Below, one piece after another: positions 18,192 to 23,423 of a stretch of 42,981 bases of DNA. The stretch is taken from positions 1-42,981 of the forward strand of contig JARLHO010000034.1 in the NCBI GenBank assembly GCA_031292215.1, written 5' to 3'. This stretch comes from Syntrophobacteraceae bacterium. Its GTDB lineage: Bacteria; Desulfobacterota; Syntrophobacteria; Syntrophobacterales; Syntrophobacteraceae. The notes beneath the pieces are model-generated. The model was not told the DNA's origin, ran no database searches, and saw only the letters and a program-made list of their open reading frames with translations. Each line of letters begins with the position of its first letter. Position 1 is the first letter of the stretch. The translations under genes and the position numbers were made by a program.

Positions 18192-21100
18192 ATGGATTAT
18201 GATGTTGGAGTTGACATAGGCACTGTCAGCATCAACTGTATCATTTTGGACGAAAATCAAAGAATCGTCCTGGAAACTCCCTATTTGAGACATTTTGGGC
18301 TGGTCTATAAAGAAACGCACAGTCTTTTGGACGAAATCATCCAAAAGTTCGGCGCCAAGACCATCAGATCGGTCAGCTTTACGGGGGTTCACGGGGAACT
18401 TCTGGCTCAAAAGTTGGGCGCGCCCTTCGAAGTGGAGACCATCGCACAGGTGCAGGGCGCTATTCACGTCCAGCCGGGAGTGCGCTCCATCATTTCGATG
18501 GGAGGCCAGGACGCGGCCATTTTCCAGTTGGCCCACAGCGACGGCCAGTGGCGCCTTGAGTCCTTTAACATGAATGGACCCTGCGCGTCGGGAACGGGGT
18601 CTTTCATTGACCAACAGGCCGAAAGGCTTGCTCAGTCCATTTATGGCGCCGATTTTTCCATGAACCGCGAAAAGCTCCAACAGACCCTCGAGGACTTTGT
18701 CCAACTGGGTCTAAAGAGCACCTTCCCGGCCCCTGTGGCATGCCGCTGCACAGTTTTCACTAAATCCGACATGATCCATCTCCAGAATAAGGGCGAGAGT
18801 CTGGCCAACATCATCGCCGGACTCCATTTCGGTAACGCCGCCAATTATGTGAGCTCTCTTATCGGCAACCGCGAACTGCTCGACCCCATCGTTTTTATCG
18901 GCGGCATGGCCTCCAACCGACTCCAGGTAAAAGCCTTCGAACACTATTTTCCCTCCATGACGGTTCCCGCCTGCCATACGTCCGTAGGCGCGCTGGGGAT
19001 GGCGATACTTGCCGGCGAAAAAAAATGGCGAAACGCGGTTGATCTCTCTATCCTTCTTTGCGCCGATTCCCAATCGGCCAAGAGCTTTCCACGGGCAAAG
19101 CGTCTGAAGCTCTCGCTCAGCCGCTTTGACTCAGACACCGGTCCGGCGCCCTGGGCATGGAAGAAGGGAAAAGCCGTCGAGGCCTATCTCGGGATCGACA
19201 TAGGATCCACCAGCACCAAATATGCGCTCATTAGCGATAAGGGCCAAATCCTGCACAAGTGCTACGTACCCACGCGGGGAAAACCCATAGAGGTGACCCA
19301 GAAGCTTCTGCGCACCCTGCAGGAAGAAGCGGGCGGGGGCAAAGTAAAGCTCATGGCCATCGCCACGACGGGGTCCGGCCGCAATGTGGTGGGGGATTTT
19401 CTTAGCTCGGATCTTGTGATCGACGAGATTACCGCGCATGCGCGCGGCGCGGTTCAAATAGATCCGGAAGTGGATACGATATTTGAAATCGGCGGCCAGG
19501 ATTCCAAGTACATCATGATCGACAACACCCACCCGTTTGATTTCGCCATGAACAAGGTGTGCGCTGCCGGAACGGGTAGTTTTCTCCACGAACTCGCCAA
19601 CAAGATGAATATCAATATCGTTGGCGAATTCCAGGACATAGCCCTTGGATCGAAAAGTCCGATCCACTTGGCCGAGCGGTGCACGGTGTTTATGGAATCA
19701 GACCTCGCGAGCTATATGCAAAAGGGGGGCGAGAGGCAGGACTTAATCGCCGGGCTTTGCTATGCGATAGTCTACAACTATCTGAACCGGGTGGTGGAAA
19801 AAAGGCGCATTGGAAAACGGGTGATGTTTCTGGGGGGACCTTCGCTAAACAAAGGAATCGTTGCCGCCTTCGAAAGGGTGCTGGGCCGTGAGGTGCTGGT
19901 CCCCCAAAACCGCGAAGTGATGGGGGCCTTCGGCGCGGCCCTGTCGGTAATGGAGCTTTTCAAAAAAGAAGGGATGCAATACCACCGGCGCGATCTCGAC
20001 CAGCTTGCCTCCATGGATGTGAACTTTACCGAGAGCATCTGCTCGGCGGACAAAAAATGTCACAACGAATGCAAGCTCAAAATTTATAACTTCGGCGAGC
20101 GCAAAAGCGTCTGGGGGGGTGATTGCGGCCGTTATGAAACCCGGGTCGAAGGGGTCCGGGAGGTCGACTATTTTCAGGTGAGGCAGGCGGAGTTCGAAAA
20201 GGCCCTCTCCGAGGCCGGAAATCTTTTGACCGAAGCCGAAGCCAACCGACAGCAAAAACCGGTTATCGGCATTCCTCTTGCCCTGCACTCCCTGGAGTGG
20301 GGCGTTTTATGGGCGCACCTTTTTTCCGAACTTGGCTTTCCTGTGCTCATGAGCCCCAGGACAACCAATAAGCTCGCTTTCCTGGGCGTCGAAAACGTGA
20401 TCTCCGAGGTCTGCTTTCCGGTAAAGGTCTTCCACGGCCATGTCCGCTACCTTATGGACCGGGCCGAGTACCTCTTTTTGCCCAATGTGGTGAATGCGCC
20501 TGTCCCGCACCAGGAGGAAGTCGGCTATTTCTGTCCGCTCGTTCAGAGTTCCCAATTCATGAGCCGGTCGGCGCTAAACATCTCCGATGGCAGGATCATT
20601 CGACCTTCGCTCTATTTGAAGGAAGGCCCCCAAAATCTGGTCTTCGCCCTGGAAAAGGCCTTTCCGCGCGCGTTGCGCCCTAAAAGAGGCGAGCTGGCGA
20701 AGGCCATCTCCATTGCCCTGGCAAGGCAGGAGCAATTTCGAAACCGGCTACTTGAGGCCGGAAAAGAGATTCTTCATGCCATCGACCCTGCCGAACCGGT
20801 TTGGATAGTCACGGGACGTCCCTACAACCTCTATGACGAAAGGCTCAATCTCCAGCTTGGAAAACAGCTTGCAAAGCTTGGAATAAAGGCTGTTCCGATG
20901 GACATGATCGACTCGGATTCCGAGGACATGACCGATTTCAAGCGCATGTTCTGGGGGCTGGGAGCACGGATCATACGGACTGCGAAAATGATCGCCCGCA
21001 CCCCGAACTGGTATGGCGTCCATCTGACCAATTTCAGTTGCGGGGCCGATTCTTTTATCGAACATTTTTATCGCCACCTGCTGGCCGATAAGCCCTCGTT

Positions 21101-21248
21101 GATACTCGAGCTCGACGAGCACAGCGCCGTGGCCGGCCTTTTGACCCGCGTGGAAGCCTACCGCAATGTGGTGAGAAATATCCAGGAAAAGCGGCTGTCC
21201 GCAAAACCTCACCCGATTGAAGGCGACCCGTTCGAGGAGGCAGGGTAA
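18192..21248 (+). CDS. Double BadF/HgdC-type activase with DUF2229 domain
   Basis: A 1018-residue cytoplasmic protein related to the ATP-driven activators of 2-hydroxyacyl-CoA dehydratases and benzoyl-CoA reductases. Two complete activase modules occur: residues 1-280 (GVDIGTVS, GGQDAAI, C131-ASGTGSF, C186-TVF) and 331-590 (GIDIGSTSTK, GGQDSKY, C457-AAGTGSF, C497-TVF). Each has the two cysteines that in HgdC hold a bridging 4Fe-4S cluster. From about 690 a DUF2229-type region follows (IGIPLALHSLEWG, EVCFPVKVFHGHV). In related genomes such modules may be fused to the HgdB-like part that here is a separate gene at 22041, 792 bp downstream and beyond a repeat cassette. It has its own promoter. 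The substrate is unknown. Confidence 0.93.
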   Translation: MDYDVGVDIGTVSINCIILDENQRIVLETPYLRHFGLVYKETHSLLDEIIQKFGAKTIRSVSFTGVHGELLAQKLGAPFEVETIAQVQGAIHVQPGVRSIISMGGQDAAIFQLAHSDGQWRLESFNMNGPCASGTGSFIDQQAERLAQSIYGADFSMNREKLQQTLEDFVQLGLKSTFPAPVACRCTVFTKSDMIHLQNKGESLANIIAGLHFGNAANYVSSLIGNRELLDPIVFIGGMASNRLQVKAFEHYFPSMTVPACHTSVGALGMAILAGEKKWRNAVDLSILLCADSQSAKSFPRAKRLKLSLSRFDSDTGPAPWAWKKGKAVEAYLGIDIGSTSTKYALISDKGQILHKCYVPTRGKPIEVTQKLLRTLQEEAGGGKVKLMAIATTGSGRNVVGDFLSSDLVIDEITAHARGAVQIDPEVDTIFEIGGQDSKYIMIDNTHPFDFAMNKVCAAGTGSFLHELANKMNINIVGEFQDIALGSKSPIHLAERCTVFMESDLASYMQKGGERQDLIAGLCYAIVYNYLNRVVEKRRIGKRVMFLGGPSLNKGIVAAFERVLGREVLVPQNREVMGAFGAALSVMELFKKEGMQYHRRDLDQLASMDVNFTESICSADKKCHNECKLKIYNFGERKSVWGGDCGRYETRVEGVREVDYFQVRQAEFEKALSEAGNLLTEAEANRQQKPVIGIPLALHSLEWGVLWAHLFSELGFPVLMSPRTTNKLAFLGVENVISEVCFPVKVFHGHVRYLMDRAEYLFLPNVVNAPVPHQEEVGYFCPLVQSSQFMSRSALNISDGRIIRPSLYLKEGPQNLVFALEKAFPRALRPKRGELAKAISIALARQEQFRNRLLEAGKEILHAIDPAEPVWIVTGRPYNLYDERLNLQLGKQLAKLGIKAVPMDMIDSDSEDMTDFKRMFWGLGARIIRTAKMIARTPNWYGVHLTNFSCGADSFIEHFYRHLLADKPSLILELDEHSAVAGLLTRVEAYRNVVRNIQEKRLSAKPHPIEGDPFEEAG

Positions 21249-21257
21249 TTATTGTCT

Positions 21258-21290
21258 CACGCGAAGCCGCGAAGGCGCGAAGAAGCGAAG
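21258..21290 (-). repeat. Left octamer array of the cassette
   Basis: Four successive octamers of the type CGCGAAGN (N = C, G, A; the last unit begins AGCGAAG) follow CA at the left end. The first 25 bp are the exact reverse complement of 21985-22009. A GCTAAG-rich stretch continues to about 21310. Confidence 0.8.
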
Positions 21291-21321
21291 AAGGGCTAAG
21301 AGAAGCTAAGGGCAGAAAAAG

Positions 21322-22044
21322 ATGGAAATCGAGGAAATCGCCAGGGTATCGGTCGATTGCGGGTACACGATACATAAGCAACTGGGGCCGGGACTGCTCG
21401 AGTCGGTCTATGAAGTTGTACTGGCTAAGCTGCTTACAGACAATGGTCTTTGTGTGGAACGGCAAAAGCAGGTCCCGATCGTTTTCAACGGGGTTCGGTT
21501 TGCAGAAGGCTTCCGGGCCGATCTGTTGGTCGAAGACAAGTTGGTCGTTGAAATCAAGTCCGTTGACGAGCTTGCCCCGGTCCACTACAAACAGTTACTG
21601 ACGTACCTGAGGCTTCTTAACCTGCCCCTTGGGCTGCTTATGAACTTCGGAGCTTCTTTATTTAAAGACGGCATAAAGCGGGTTGTAAACAACCGCACAG
21701 ACTTCGCGGCTTCGCGTGCACCAATGTTTTTCGGAAACCGCCGAGCCCGACTTCTCACGAGAAGACGAAAAGATAGAACGGATAGACCGCCAGTGAACTT
21801 AGATACCGATCATTTCGAATTTGCGCCTTCGCTTCTTTGCGACTTCTCTTCTTCTTTTCTTCGCTACTTCGCGTCTTCGCGGCTTCGCGTGCATAAAATG
21901 TTACTGCTTCTTCGCTACTTCGCGGCTTCGCGCCTTCGCGGCTTCGCGTGCATAAAATGTTACTGCTTCTTCGCTACTTCGCGTCTTCGCGCCTTCGCGG
22001 CTTCGCGTGCACCAAGTTCTTCTCTAGAGGGTCACGATAGATGA
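21322..22044 (+). CDS. GxxExxY protein, PD-(D/E)XK nuclease-like, with repeat-encoded tail
   Basis: Residues 1-124 match the GxxExxY family (PF13366, a predicted PD-(D/E)XK nuclease fold): G24-LLE27-SVY30, D67 in RADLLV, E77-I-K79 and Q91 in HYKQLLTYL. These form a plausible metal-dependent catalytic set. Family proteins are usually about 120-130 residues. Here no stop follows IKRVVNN, and the frame runs on for 116 residues through the octamer array, giving a low-complexity tail with repeats such as FAASRAP and RYFASSRL. The true product is probably the first half; the rest is read-through or an insertion effect. Its TGA overlaps the next ATG (ATGA, 22041-22044). The ribosome-binding site is weak. 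The biological role of the family is not established. Confidence 0.8.
   Translation: MEIEEIARVSVDCGYTIHKQLGPGLLESVYEVVLAKLLTDNGLCVERQKQVPIVFNGVRFAEGFRADLLVEDKLVVEIKSVDELAPVHYKQLLTYLRLLNLPLGLLMNFGASLFKDGIKRVVNNRTDFAASRAPMFFGNRRARLLTRRRKDRTDRPPVNLDTDHFEFAPSLLCDFSSSFLRYFASSRLRVHKMLLLLRYFAASRLRGFACIKCYCFFATSRLRAFAASRAPSSSLEGHDR
21857..22015 (+). repeat. Right octamer array: three higher-order units
   Basis: Three units start near 21857, 21907 and 21966. Each has a TTCTTCGCTA lead and then three or four octamers NCTTCGCG ending in TG. The first two end with GCATAAAATGTTACTG; the last ends with CACCAAG. Unit length differs by exactly one octamer (unit 1 lacks one), which indicates expansion or contraction by whole octamers. 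The array stops 25 bp before the start of the HgdB-like gene. Confidence 0.85.
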
Positions 22045-23423
22045 CGGTTCCCGCAAATCATTTTGGGCGGTTCTACGATAAGGTCAAGCAGTTCGACGTG
22101 ACGGGCAAGACCCTTCTTATCCCGAACATGGCCCCCTTTGCGACCCGGCTGCTTGCTGCCTCTTTCCACGCCGTTGGCGTAAACGCCCTGGTGATGGATA
22201 CCTATAAGGGCCTTTCCCTCGGAAAGGAATTTACCTCGGGGAAAGAATGTTTTCCCTGCCAGGTGACCCTGGGAGATATTCTCTATTTTCTGCGAAAGGA
22301 AAAAGACAGGCTCGGAACGGCCTTTTCGCCCGAGCGCTACGTATACTTTTTGCCCGAAGCCGACGGCCCCTGCCGCTTTGGCATGTACAACAAGATGCAG
22401 CGCCTCGTGTTGGACAAGTTCGAGGACTTTCGCGATATTCCGATAACGTATGTCTCGACCCGAAACTCCTATTCGGCGGAGGGCATCATGCCCCCCAAGG
22501 CCTCCGCAATATTTAGAAAACTATGCTATGTAACTGTAATTATAGCTGATATACTGGACCGTATCACTTGGCGGGTGCGCCCCTACGAACTTCGTCCCGG
22601 CTTGACCGATTCTTTTATCGGCAAAGCCCTCGAGGCCTTGAGCGAGCAAGTCGAACTCTACGGCGCATCCCTTGGGCTGAAACGACTTTTCGAGATTGTC
22701 GAAGATACGGCTGCAACGGCTAAAACATTTATTGACACCCGGGCGCCCAGGCGGCCTTTGATAGGAATCGTCGGGGAGATTTATGTCCGTACACACCCCG
22801 AGTCTAACCAAAACATCGTGAGAGTGCTTGAGCGGTTCGGAGCCGAAGTAGTGGTGGCTTCTGTCGGCGAGTGGATAAACTACATAACCTATGATATGGC
22901 CAGGGAACAGAAGAGGCATGTGAAGCTGGCCCTGCTCAAACGCGATTTCGTGTCGCTAAGATCGGCCCTAAACGACCTCATTCCCACACAGATCGAAAAA
23001 TACTATCAAATCGTACGCCAGAAACAGATTTACAGTCGTGCGCTCAACCATTTGGACATTCAGAAAGATCACGCCATATCCATACTAGAAAAGCGGCTGG
23101 ACAAGGATCGGCTCTTTAGCTTCGACATCGGGACCGAGTCGGCGCTAAGCATCGGGGCCGCGCTCGAACATTTGCACGAAGGGTACTCGGGCATCGTAAA
23201 TGTCTATCCCTTCACCTGCATGCCCAGCGCGGTCTGCACCGCCGTTCTCAAACCGCTTCTAAACAAAATGCGCATGCCCTACATAGATGCGCCTTATGAT
23301 GGGGCTATTCAGCCCAACCGGGAGATAGCGCTGCGAACGTTTCTCCACCAGGCCAAGCAGCACCTTCAATCCCGGAATTCGGGCAAAAGAAACGGCAAAG
23401 TGAAATGTCATATCAAACCATGA
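22041..23423 (+). CDS. HgdB-like 2-hydroxyacyl-CoA dehydratase/CoA-activase partner
   Basis: A 460-residue protein of the HgdB/BcrB-like (2-hydroxyglutaryl-CoA dehydratase D component) type. Conserved cysteine motifs are visible: GKECFPCQVTLGD near residue 70, DGPCRFGMYNKMQ near 110, and PFTCMPSAVC near 390, as expected of iron-sulfur cluster ligands. A Rossmann-like stretch (PLIGIVGEIYVRTHPESN) lies in the middle. It would act with the activase encoded upstream to reduce or dehydrate a CoA thioester, but the natural substrate is unknown. AGAGGG about ten bases upstream is the ribosome-binding site, right after the octamer array, so the cassette now supplies its leader. Its end overlaps the RNase gene by 19 bp. 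Confidence 0.88.
   Translation: MTVPANHFGRFYDKVKQFDVTGKTLLIPNMAPFATRLLAASFHAVGVNALVMDTYKGLSLGKEFTSGKECFPCQVTLGDILYFLRKEKDRLGTAFSPERYVYFLPEADGPCRFGMYNKMQRLVLDKFEDFRDIPITYVSTRNSYSAEGIMPPKASAIFRKLCYVTVIIADILDRITWRVRPYELRPGLTDSFIGKALEALSEQVELYGASLGLKRLFEIVEDTAATAKTFIDTRAPRRPLIGIVGEIYVRTHPESNQNIVRVLERFGAEVVVASVGEWINYITYDMAREQKRHVKLALLKRDFVSLRSALNDLIPTQIEKYYQIVRQKQIYSRALNHLDIQKDHAISILEKRLDKDRLFSFDIGTESALSIGAALEHLHEGYSGIVNVYPFTCMPSAVCTAVLKPLLNKMRMPYIDAPYDGAIQPNREIALRTFLHQAKQHLQSRNSGKRNGKVKCHIKP

Follow-up and report, generated by a model that had tools for sequence, protein, structure and literature searches.

Organization of the locus

The window analysed here is the whole 42,981-nucleotide stretch of contig C134, from a Syntrophobacteraceae genome of 4.89 Mb in 177 contigs. 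A small gene enclosed by short inverted arrays lies in it between a 2-hydroxyacyl-CoA dehydratase activase-like gene and an HgdB-like partner, with the following features:

18192..21248, + strand: 2-hydroxyacyl-CoA dehydratase activase-like gene, left neighbour, with BcrAD_BadFG and DUF2229 domains
21258..21293, - strand: left inverted array of CGCGAAGN units, nine bases 3' of the activase stop codon
21322..21690, + strand: conserved GxxExxY / PDDEXK_3 core of the putative nuclease, 123 aa, with G24, E27, Y30, D67, E77, K79, Q91 and Y95
21691..22044, + strand: C-terminal tail of the open reading frame, translated from repeat-rich DNA beyond the HMM match, its stop overlapping the HgdB-like start
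21702..21724, + strand: probable primary right terminus of CTTCGCGN units, directly behind the core and at the right-end position seen in the relatives G005 and G007
21848..22024, + strand: probable later expansion of three 59-bp tandem copies, two of them at 90% and 78% to the first
22041..23423, + strand: HgdB-like partner gene, right neighbour, so labelled in the preliminary description; its only Pfam match is DUF2229, below threshold

The ends of the two neighbours given in the preliminary description, 21248 for the activase and 22041 for the HgdB-like gene, were confirmed, and so was its perfect 25-bp inverted repeat, positions 21258-21282 being the exact reverse complement of 21985-22009 (25/25); at 94% identity the terminal arms reach 36 nt. 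The 23-bp copy of the right end that it reported is also there, 21702-21724 being identical to 21993-22015. The open reading frame of the putative nuclease (21322-22044, 240 aa) shares 4 bp with the start of the HgdB-like gene; its conserved core comprises approximately residues 1-123, and the HMM match covers residues 6-122. The right end first proposed for the unit was revised, as it is part of the expansion, whose internal arrays lie at 21859-21890, 21910-21949 and 21969-22008. At the same site in G005 and G007 the right array lies directly behind the gene; for this reason the basic element is taken as 21258-21724, a minimal element of approximately 467 bp, and positions 21725-22015 are taken as mostly later expansion.

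The octamer is found well beyond this locus: the octamer-pair pattern CTTCGCGNCTTCGCG gave 54 matches in the same genome and its reversed control gave 0, and these matches, grouped by hand, fall in 26 places. At L051:2888-3123 an array has lengthened into an extended series of AGCGAAGN and similar octamers, which suggests strong local growth. A second dispersed repeat of this genome, GGTTGGGCT...AGCCCAACC, has inverted ends and stands beside several octamer arrays (L050:2781-3480, also L039, L041 and L045).

The GxxExxY protein

By HMM the window protein belongs to both the GxxExxY family TIGR04256 (E 9e-38; 129.2 bits against a curated cut-off of 35) and PDDEXK_3, PF13366 (126.2 bits against 22). 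The GxxExxY and PD-(D/E)XK residues pointed out earlier are conserved in both alignments: G22, G24, E27, Y30, D67, E77, K79, Q91 and Y95 are invariant among 12 sequences, the window included, and among 41 sequences G22, E27, Y30, E77 and K79 are invariant, with G24, D67, Q91 and Y95 at 90% or more. The spacing of Q91 and Y95 is presumably of the QxxxY type, as in Cas4. The structure model obtained from the 41-sequence alignment (pLDDT 94.2, pTM 0.88) has Cas4 SSO0001 (4ic1) as its best solved match, with Z 9.3 and rmsd 4.7 over 106 residues; the next matches are other restriction-endonuclease-like enzymes, including Hjc and BamHI, at Z 7.0, where a Z below 8 may reflect a common arrangement only. 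Foldseek gave SSO0001 at E 2.1e-3 and no match below 0.001, and the weak PADLOC matches were a PDDEXK protein associated with RT (E 6e-4) and Cas4 (E 0.03). A sequence search of the PDB with the window protein found no clear relative, its one match, at E 0.18, not being Cas4. The protein thus models as a predicted Cas4-like PD-(D/E)XK fold with putative nuclease activity.

The GxxExxY protein is under purifying selection. Across 18 chosen gene pairs dN/dS was 0.02-0.18, the ratios being rough for the several pairs in which synonymous change is near saturation (pS >0.6); between copies at the same site (L268/L281, L180/L186, L184/L198 and L132/L135) it was 0.02-0.04. Two further pairs with saturated synonymous change gave pN/pS of 0.12 and 0.20.

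Inverted arrays at other GxxExxY loci

The survey used named genomes, in which 557 GxxExxY loci were confirmed; the best 80 of these 557 were taken, a choice that leans towards window-like proteins and Bacteroidota. At each locus 300 bp per side were used, the upstream flank being compared with the reverse complement of the downstream one, and a score of at least 31, a threshold picked after the data had been seen, was counted as an inverted array. Five of the 80 loci were dropped for short flanks; among the 75 usable loci from these best 80 of 557, inverted arrays were present at 53, versus 1 of 389 shifted windows, and 22 loci remained below threshold. Within the same best 80 of 557, a threshold of 27 gave 60/75 loci versus 10/389 windows and a threshold of 40 gave 36 versus 0, one locus per orthologous site left 40/60 with inverted arrays, and direct (same-strand) flank repeats were also in excess (18/75 versus 6/389). 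Arms of different loci match each other because the units are alike, and 181 of 1500 mismatched-locus arm pairs scored 31 or more.

In the genomes of relatives of the window, 24/33 GxxExxY genes lie in inverted arrays, versus 1/62 shifted windows; the counts were 1/27 for genes of Uma2 (PF05685), which we take to be COG4636, and 0/22 for HgdB genes. Four gene families were tested, two with arrays (GxxExxY and PF05635) and two without (Uma2 and HgdB). When the GxxExxY genes of these relatives were located by motif, 2 of 34 were missed; in the comparison of families, rows with short flanks were dropped (1/34 GxxExxY, 3/30 Uma2 and 1/30 PF05635). Two simple explanations were rejected on these grounds: a purely local oddity, since the layout recurs at other GxxExxY loci, and a trait shared by dispersed PD-(D/E)XK genes at large, since arrays at Uma2 genes are so rare. 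Uma2 itself is multiplied in G000, G005 and G007, with 43, 33 and 39 matches versus 0-10 in the other eight genomes of the genus.

A larger set, orthologues included, contained 95 of 134 elements with a score of at least 31, and a few of its alignments (L239, L240, L243 and L253) are AT-rich inverted repeats with no arrays. A clear period was found in 75 arms of the 95 elements, of 8 bp in 46, 9 bp in 23 and 10 bp in 6; typical units are CGCGAAGN, CGCAAAGN, CGCGGAGN, CGCAGAGN, CACGAAGNN, ACAGGATTN and CACGGATTNN. Five GxxExxY genes with differing units occur in the genome of the window alone: CGCGAAGN in the window, a 10-mer at L003, a 9-mer at L004, and ACAGGAT-type repeats, under threshold, at L002; L001 has no clear arrays and also fails the threshold. 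The polarity of the arrays relative to the gene is mostly fixed, the upstream arm of the 95 elements being purine-rich in 65, pyrimidine-rich in 7 and intermediate in 23.

Unit sequence and protein relatedness

Protein identity and array word similarity were compared among 100 of the 134 elements (score of at least 29; 97 with a phylum label), and the two are correlated (r 0.45; 0/2000 permutations). When only pairs from different phyla were used r was 0.244, a value reached in 0/5000 within-phylum permutations; the phylum labels were assigned by hand, with the relatives' G genomes as Desulfobacterota, Alphaproteobacteria as one group and Ignavibacteria with Bacteroidota. Elements with CGCGAAGN units labelled Desulfobacterota and Verrucomicrobiota have proteins 60-65% identical, and the ACAGGATT elements L237 and L084, under the same two labels, have proteins 56% identical. 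Exceptions exist: the proteins of L123, L127 and L128 are 64-67% identical to that of the window, yet their arrays are of other units.

One orthologous site in Sphingopyxis holds elements of two unit types, CGCAAAG in L162, L259 and L282 and CACAAAG in L262, L268 and L281. The array cosine among these six elements is 0.78-0.92 within a unit type and 0.04-0.09 between types, and protein identity is 84-87% within the CGCAAAG group, 81-98% within the CACAAAG group and 76-81% between them. The protein split agrees with the unit types, marginally so for L262, which is only slightly nearer to its unit-mates (81-82%) than to L162 (80%). The covariation of protein and unit supports the recognition of its own arrays by the nuclease. 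The possibility that the gene was inserted into host repeats was rejected, because the unit tracks the protein across phyla and the polarity is mostly fixed.

Arrays without a gene

Away from the gene, octamer copies number 67, 61, 53, 43, 30 and 2 in the six genomes whose GxxExxY gene, or fragment of one, has this octamer in its flanks and counts as cognate, and at most 9 in the other 53 of the 59 genomes; G010, with 30 dispersed copies, has cognate gene fragments only. Within the genus the separation is complete, five genomes with the cognate gene or a fragment having at least 30 copies and six without it at most 6, which would occur once in 462 if the genomes were exchangeable; being related, they are not independent. 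This tie between copy number and cognate gene favours the idea of a repeat/nuclease element. Arrays of the same octamer also stand at 25 other places in the window's genome, which qualifies the refuting condition of the preliminary description, namely that octamer arrays be equally common away from GxxExxY genes. The 9-mer version of the test is weaker, with 353, 33 and 11 copies in three genomes with a strict cognate gene and up to 41 in the 56 without, 25 of these being above zero; the highest count without a strict cognate gene is that of G007, where a looser array of this type is found at L086.

Opposite-strand neighbours less than 700 bp apart form 20 pairs in the polarity of the element, three of them spanning a GxxExxY gene, and one pair in the opposite polarity, as counted in the six genomes with full array listings from coordinates copied by hand. 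Gene-less pairs are absent at the same place in relatives, that of C152 in G001 and G005 and that of C68 in G001. The flank is duplicated at 2 of 5 gene-less pairs of the window's own genome, with no other obvious repeat as cause.

In the C152 pair (L053:2956-3150) the 56 bp between the arrays are approximately a copy of DNA shortly 3' of the second array; this copy, of the start of the next gene, resembles a long target duplication, and a shorter case is L040 (C50). GxxExxY genes are found between direct copies of a long repeat at L225, L074, L078, L248, L080, L091 and L181, and at the first four of these the repeat looks like a complete gene-less pair, in the fashion of a composite element.

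Gain, loss and probable movement

Orthologous activase loci were compared, the partner gene being present in 23 of 25 genomes, and empty sites were found, so the objection that all relatives might share the arrangement falls away. G000 and G005 have an intact gene, G007 has one interrupted by a stop codon, and G003, G010 and, by eye, G001 have remnants; the site has no GxxExxY match in G004, G006, G008 and G012, and at most a possible scar in G009. In distant genomes where the gap is measurable it is 11-137 bp long, with no GxxExxY match.

At the Sphingopyxis site, which we take to be flanked by nadB and ymgE, 30 loci were obtained from 80 genomes searched. The gene is forward in four (including L162's own) and reversed in two; six loci have no insert, four of them with a gap of 0 and two with gaps of 13 and 34 bp that are an alignment-start effect only, and the remaining loci carry other DNA or have no assignment. 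The opposite orientations (L268 and L281 versus L255, L259, L262 and L282) may reflect inversion between arrays or independent insertion.

Homologous blocks of gene and arrays with unlike flanks were found in L126/L134 and L089/L126, 435 bp each; a block of 452 bp in L132/L133 is similar, the contig of L133 ending just past the right array. Such blocks point to the gene plus its arrays as the moving unit. A genome may hold up to seven GxxExxY matches, fragments included. Target-site duplications of at least 5 bp flank 6.3% of 79 gene-bearing elements, with no excess over the null of 6.8%.

Arrays around S23p genes

The PF05635 genes (four-helix S23p/IVP), chosen as a control, have the same architecture. 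Of loci L355-L384, from 59 genomes, 23 of the 29 usable have inverted arrays, versus 0/49 shifted windows, and in arms from 21 loci the period, where clear, is 7 bp (21 arms), 8 bp (4) or 9 bp (3). Two 23S rRNA motifs were sought at 30 PF05635 loci and neither was present in any. As this family is not a nuclease, nuclease activity cannot explain all the array architecture, and the nuclease is perhaps not the driver, or not the sole driver; the nuclease and S23p may be alternative helpers.

Comparison with known systems

No account of such arrays around GxxExxY genes, and no match to the repeat-unit sequences, was found in the literature searched, which covered few subscription papers and is weak evidence of absence; there the TIGR04256 and PF13366 models, to both of which the window protein belongs, describe the protein only and the arrays go unmentioned. 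The REPIN-RAYT system (PMC3116915) consists of short inverted pairs outside genes and a dedicated nuclease-type gene in the genome. The present arrays are likewise dispersed as inverted pairs, in mostly fixed polarity, and tied to one gene; the differences are that the protein is a predicted PD-(D/E)XK nuclease instead of the REP-associated tyrosine transposase RAYT, that units of 8-10 bp, variable in sequence, make up the arrays at the ends, and that the gene itself lies between such arrays.

The intervening sequences (IVS) of 23S rRNA with an S23p ORF share with the present elements a small ORF in a short, here probably selfish, element, inverted repeats and tandem units, and in Coxiella, according to PMC4990558, the IVS has tandem heptamers beside the S23p ORF and is called selfish. 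The GxxExxY fold differs from the four-helix S23p, its units are mostly of 8-10 bp, and the window site, like those of the other GxxExxY elements seen, lies between two protein genes and not in 23S rRNA. The PD-(D/E)XK family COG4636 also multiplies in genomes and was proposed to be selfish (PMC551604); unlike GxxExxY genes, Uma2 genes of the same relatives seldom have inverted arrays. Cas4 is the best structural match to the model of the window protein, but there are no cas genes in the unit.

Unlike a classical insertion sequence or transposon, the unit has no transposase gene, as the preliminary description had stated, PDDEXK_3 being the only gene recognised; unlike a homing endonuclease element, the window and Sphingopyxis copies are intergenic and interrupt no conserved gene. 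Phage or plasmid cargo was rejected because of its near-absence from such records: one query protein gave 0/50,697 phage and 7/72,556 plasmid records, and 54 pattern matches in viral contigs included none that was confirmed.

Interpretation

The unit in the window is, with a probability of about 60%, a copy of a small mobile and probably selfish element, in which inverted arrays of short units enclose a PD-(D/E)XK nuclease gene. The idea of a repeat/nuclease element put forward in the preliminary description is in part supported: it extends far beyond this locus, given the arrays at most GxxExxY genes tested, the unit that tracks the protein, the empty sites and the many gene-less arrays in genomes with the cognate gene, and the boundaries of the unit needed correction. 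By analogy, the best reading is that the element would work like REPIN-RAYT with unrelated parts. The nuclease would bind its own unit and nick or cut DNA at the arrays, perhaps extruded as hairpins; repair or recombination would then set a further copy, be it of an array, of a gene-less pair or of the entire cassette, at a new site between genes. Action of the nuclease on the octamers, like the subsequent copying and insertion, is what we infer from the comparisons, and we propose that the likeness of the two ends is kept up by the need of each to suit a single enzyme.

The inverted arrays could also be the mobile principle themselves, moved in trans by another enzyme (e.g., a reverse transcriptase or transposase) or as an RNA stem-loop like the rRNA IVS, with the ORF in the loop as an accessory or passenger. 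The 23/29 PF05635 loci with arrays of mostly 7-bp units, the numerous gene-less arrays and pairs, the genes lying between direct copies of an apparent gene-less pair (L225, L074, L078 and L248) and the selfish Coxiella IVS, with heptamers beside its S23p ORF (PMC4990558), all fit this alternative; we consider it unlikely, however, because the unit tracks the relatedness of the nuclease across phyla, octamer copy number is tied to the cognate gene and the nuclease is under purifying selection. A host function, such as that of a nuclease in defence or DNA repair that is regulated by its own arrays or spares them, in an element kept vertically, seems quite improbable given the patchy presence, the decay, the stop codon at the window's own site in a relative and the up to seven matches per genome, even though the strong constraint at shared sites (dN/dS 0.02-0.04) would fit a useful role too and the weak PADLOC similarities to RT-associated PDDEXK (E 6e-4) and Cas4 (E 0.03) point the same way.

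Template switching can make inverted arms uniform, and clear local tandem growth is seen in the 59-bp copies of the window and at L051; from this one might suppose that the arrays are a by-product of slippage or template switching at short inverted repeats, collected by any small intergenic gene. Such an origin is very improbable, as any such gene should then have them and the counts were 1/27 for Uma2, 0/22 for HgdB and 1/389 for the shifted windows of the best 80 of 557 loci; moreover, the unit follows the protein.

A wider reading of the nuclease element, which we hold tentatively and at a little under even odds, is that it belongs to an undescribed class of mobile elements in which inverted arrays of 7-10-bp units are common to two unrelated small proteins, a Cas4-like nuclease (mostly 8-10-mers) and the four-helix S23p (mostly 7-mers), with the nuclease dictating the unit and the gene-less pairs as non-autonomous offspring; inverted repeats and heptamers are already known from IVS elements. 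If this is true, a ready-made catalogue of DNA recognition codes, each array matched to its protein, exists in nature across many phyla; since unit and protein vary together, many nuclease-target pairs are open to direct testing. A protein family that is widespread and of unknown function would gain a role and a target from the nuclease element, at approximately 470 bp a very small candidate for self-spreading DNA. The element would also account for a set of short repeats between genes that might else pass for noise and that are translated into protein tails, as in the open reading frame of the window.
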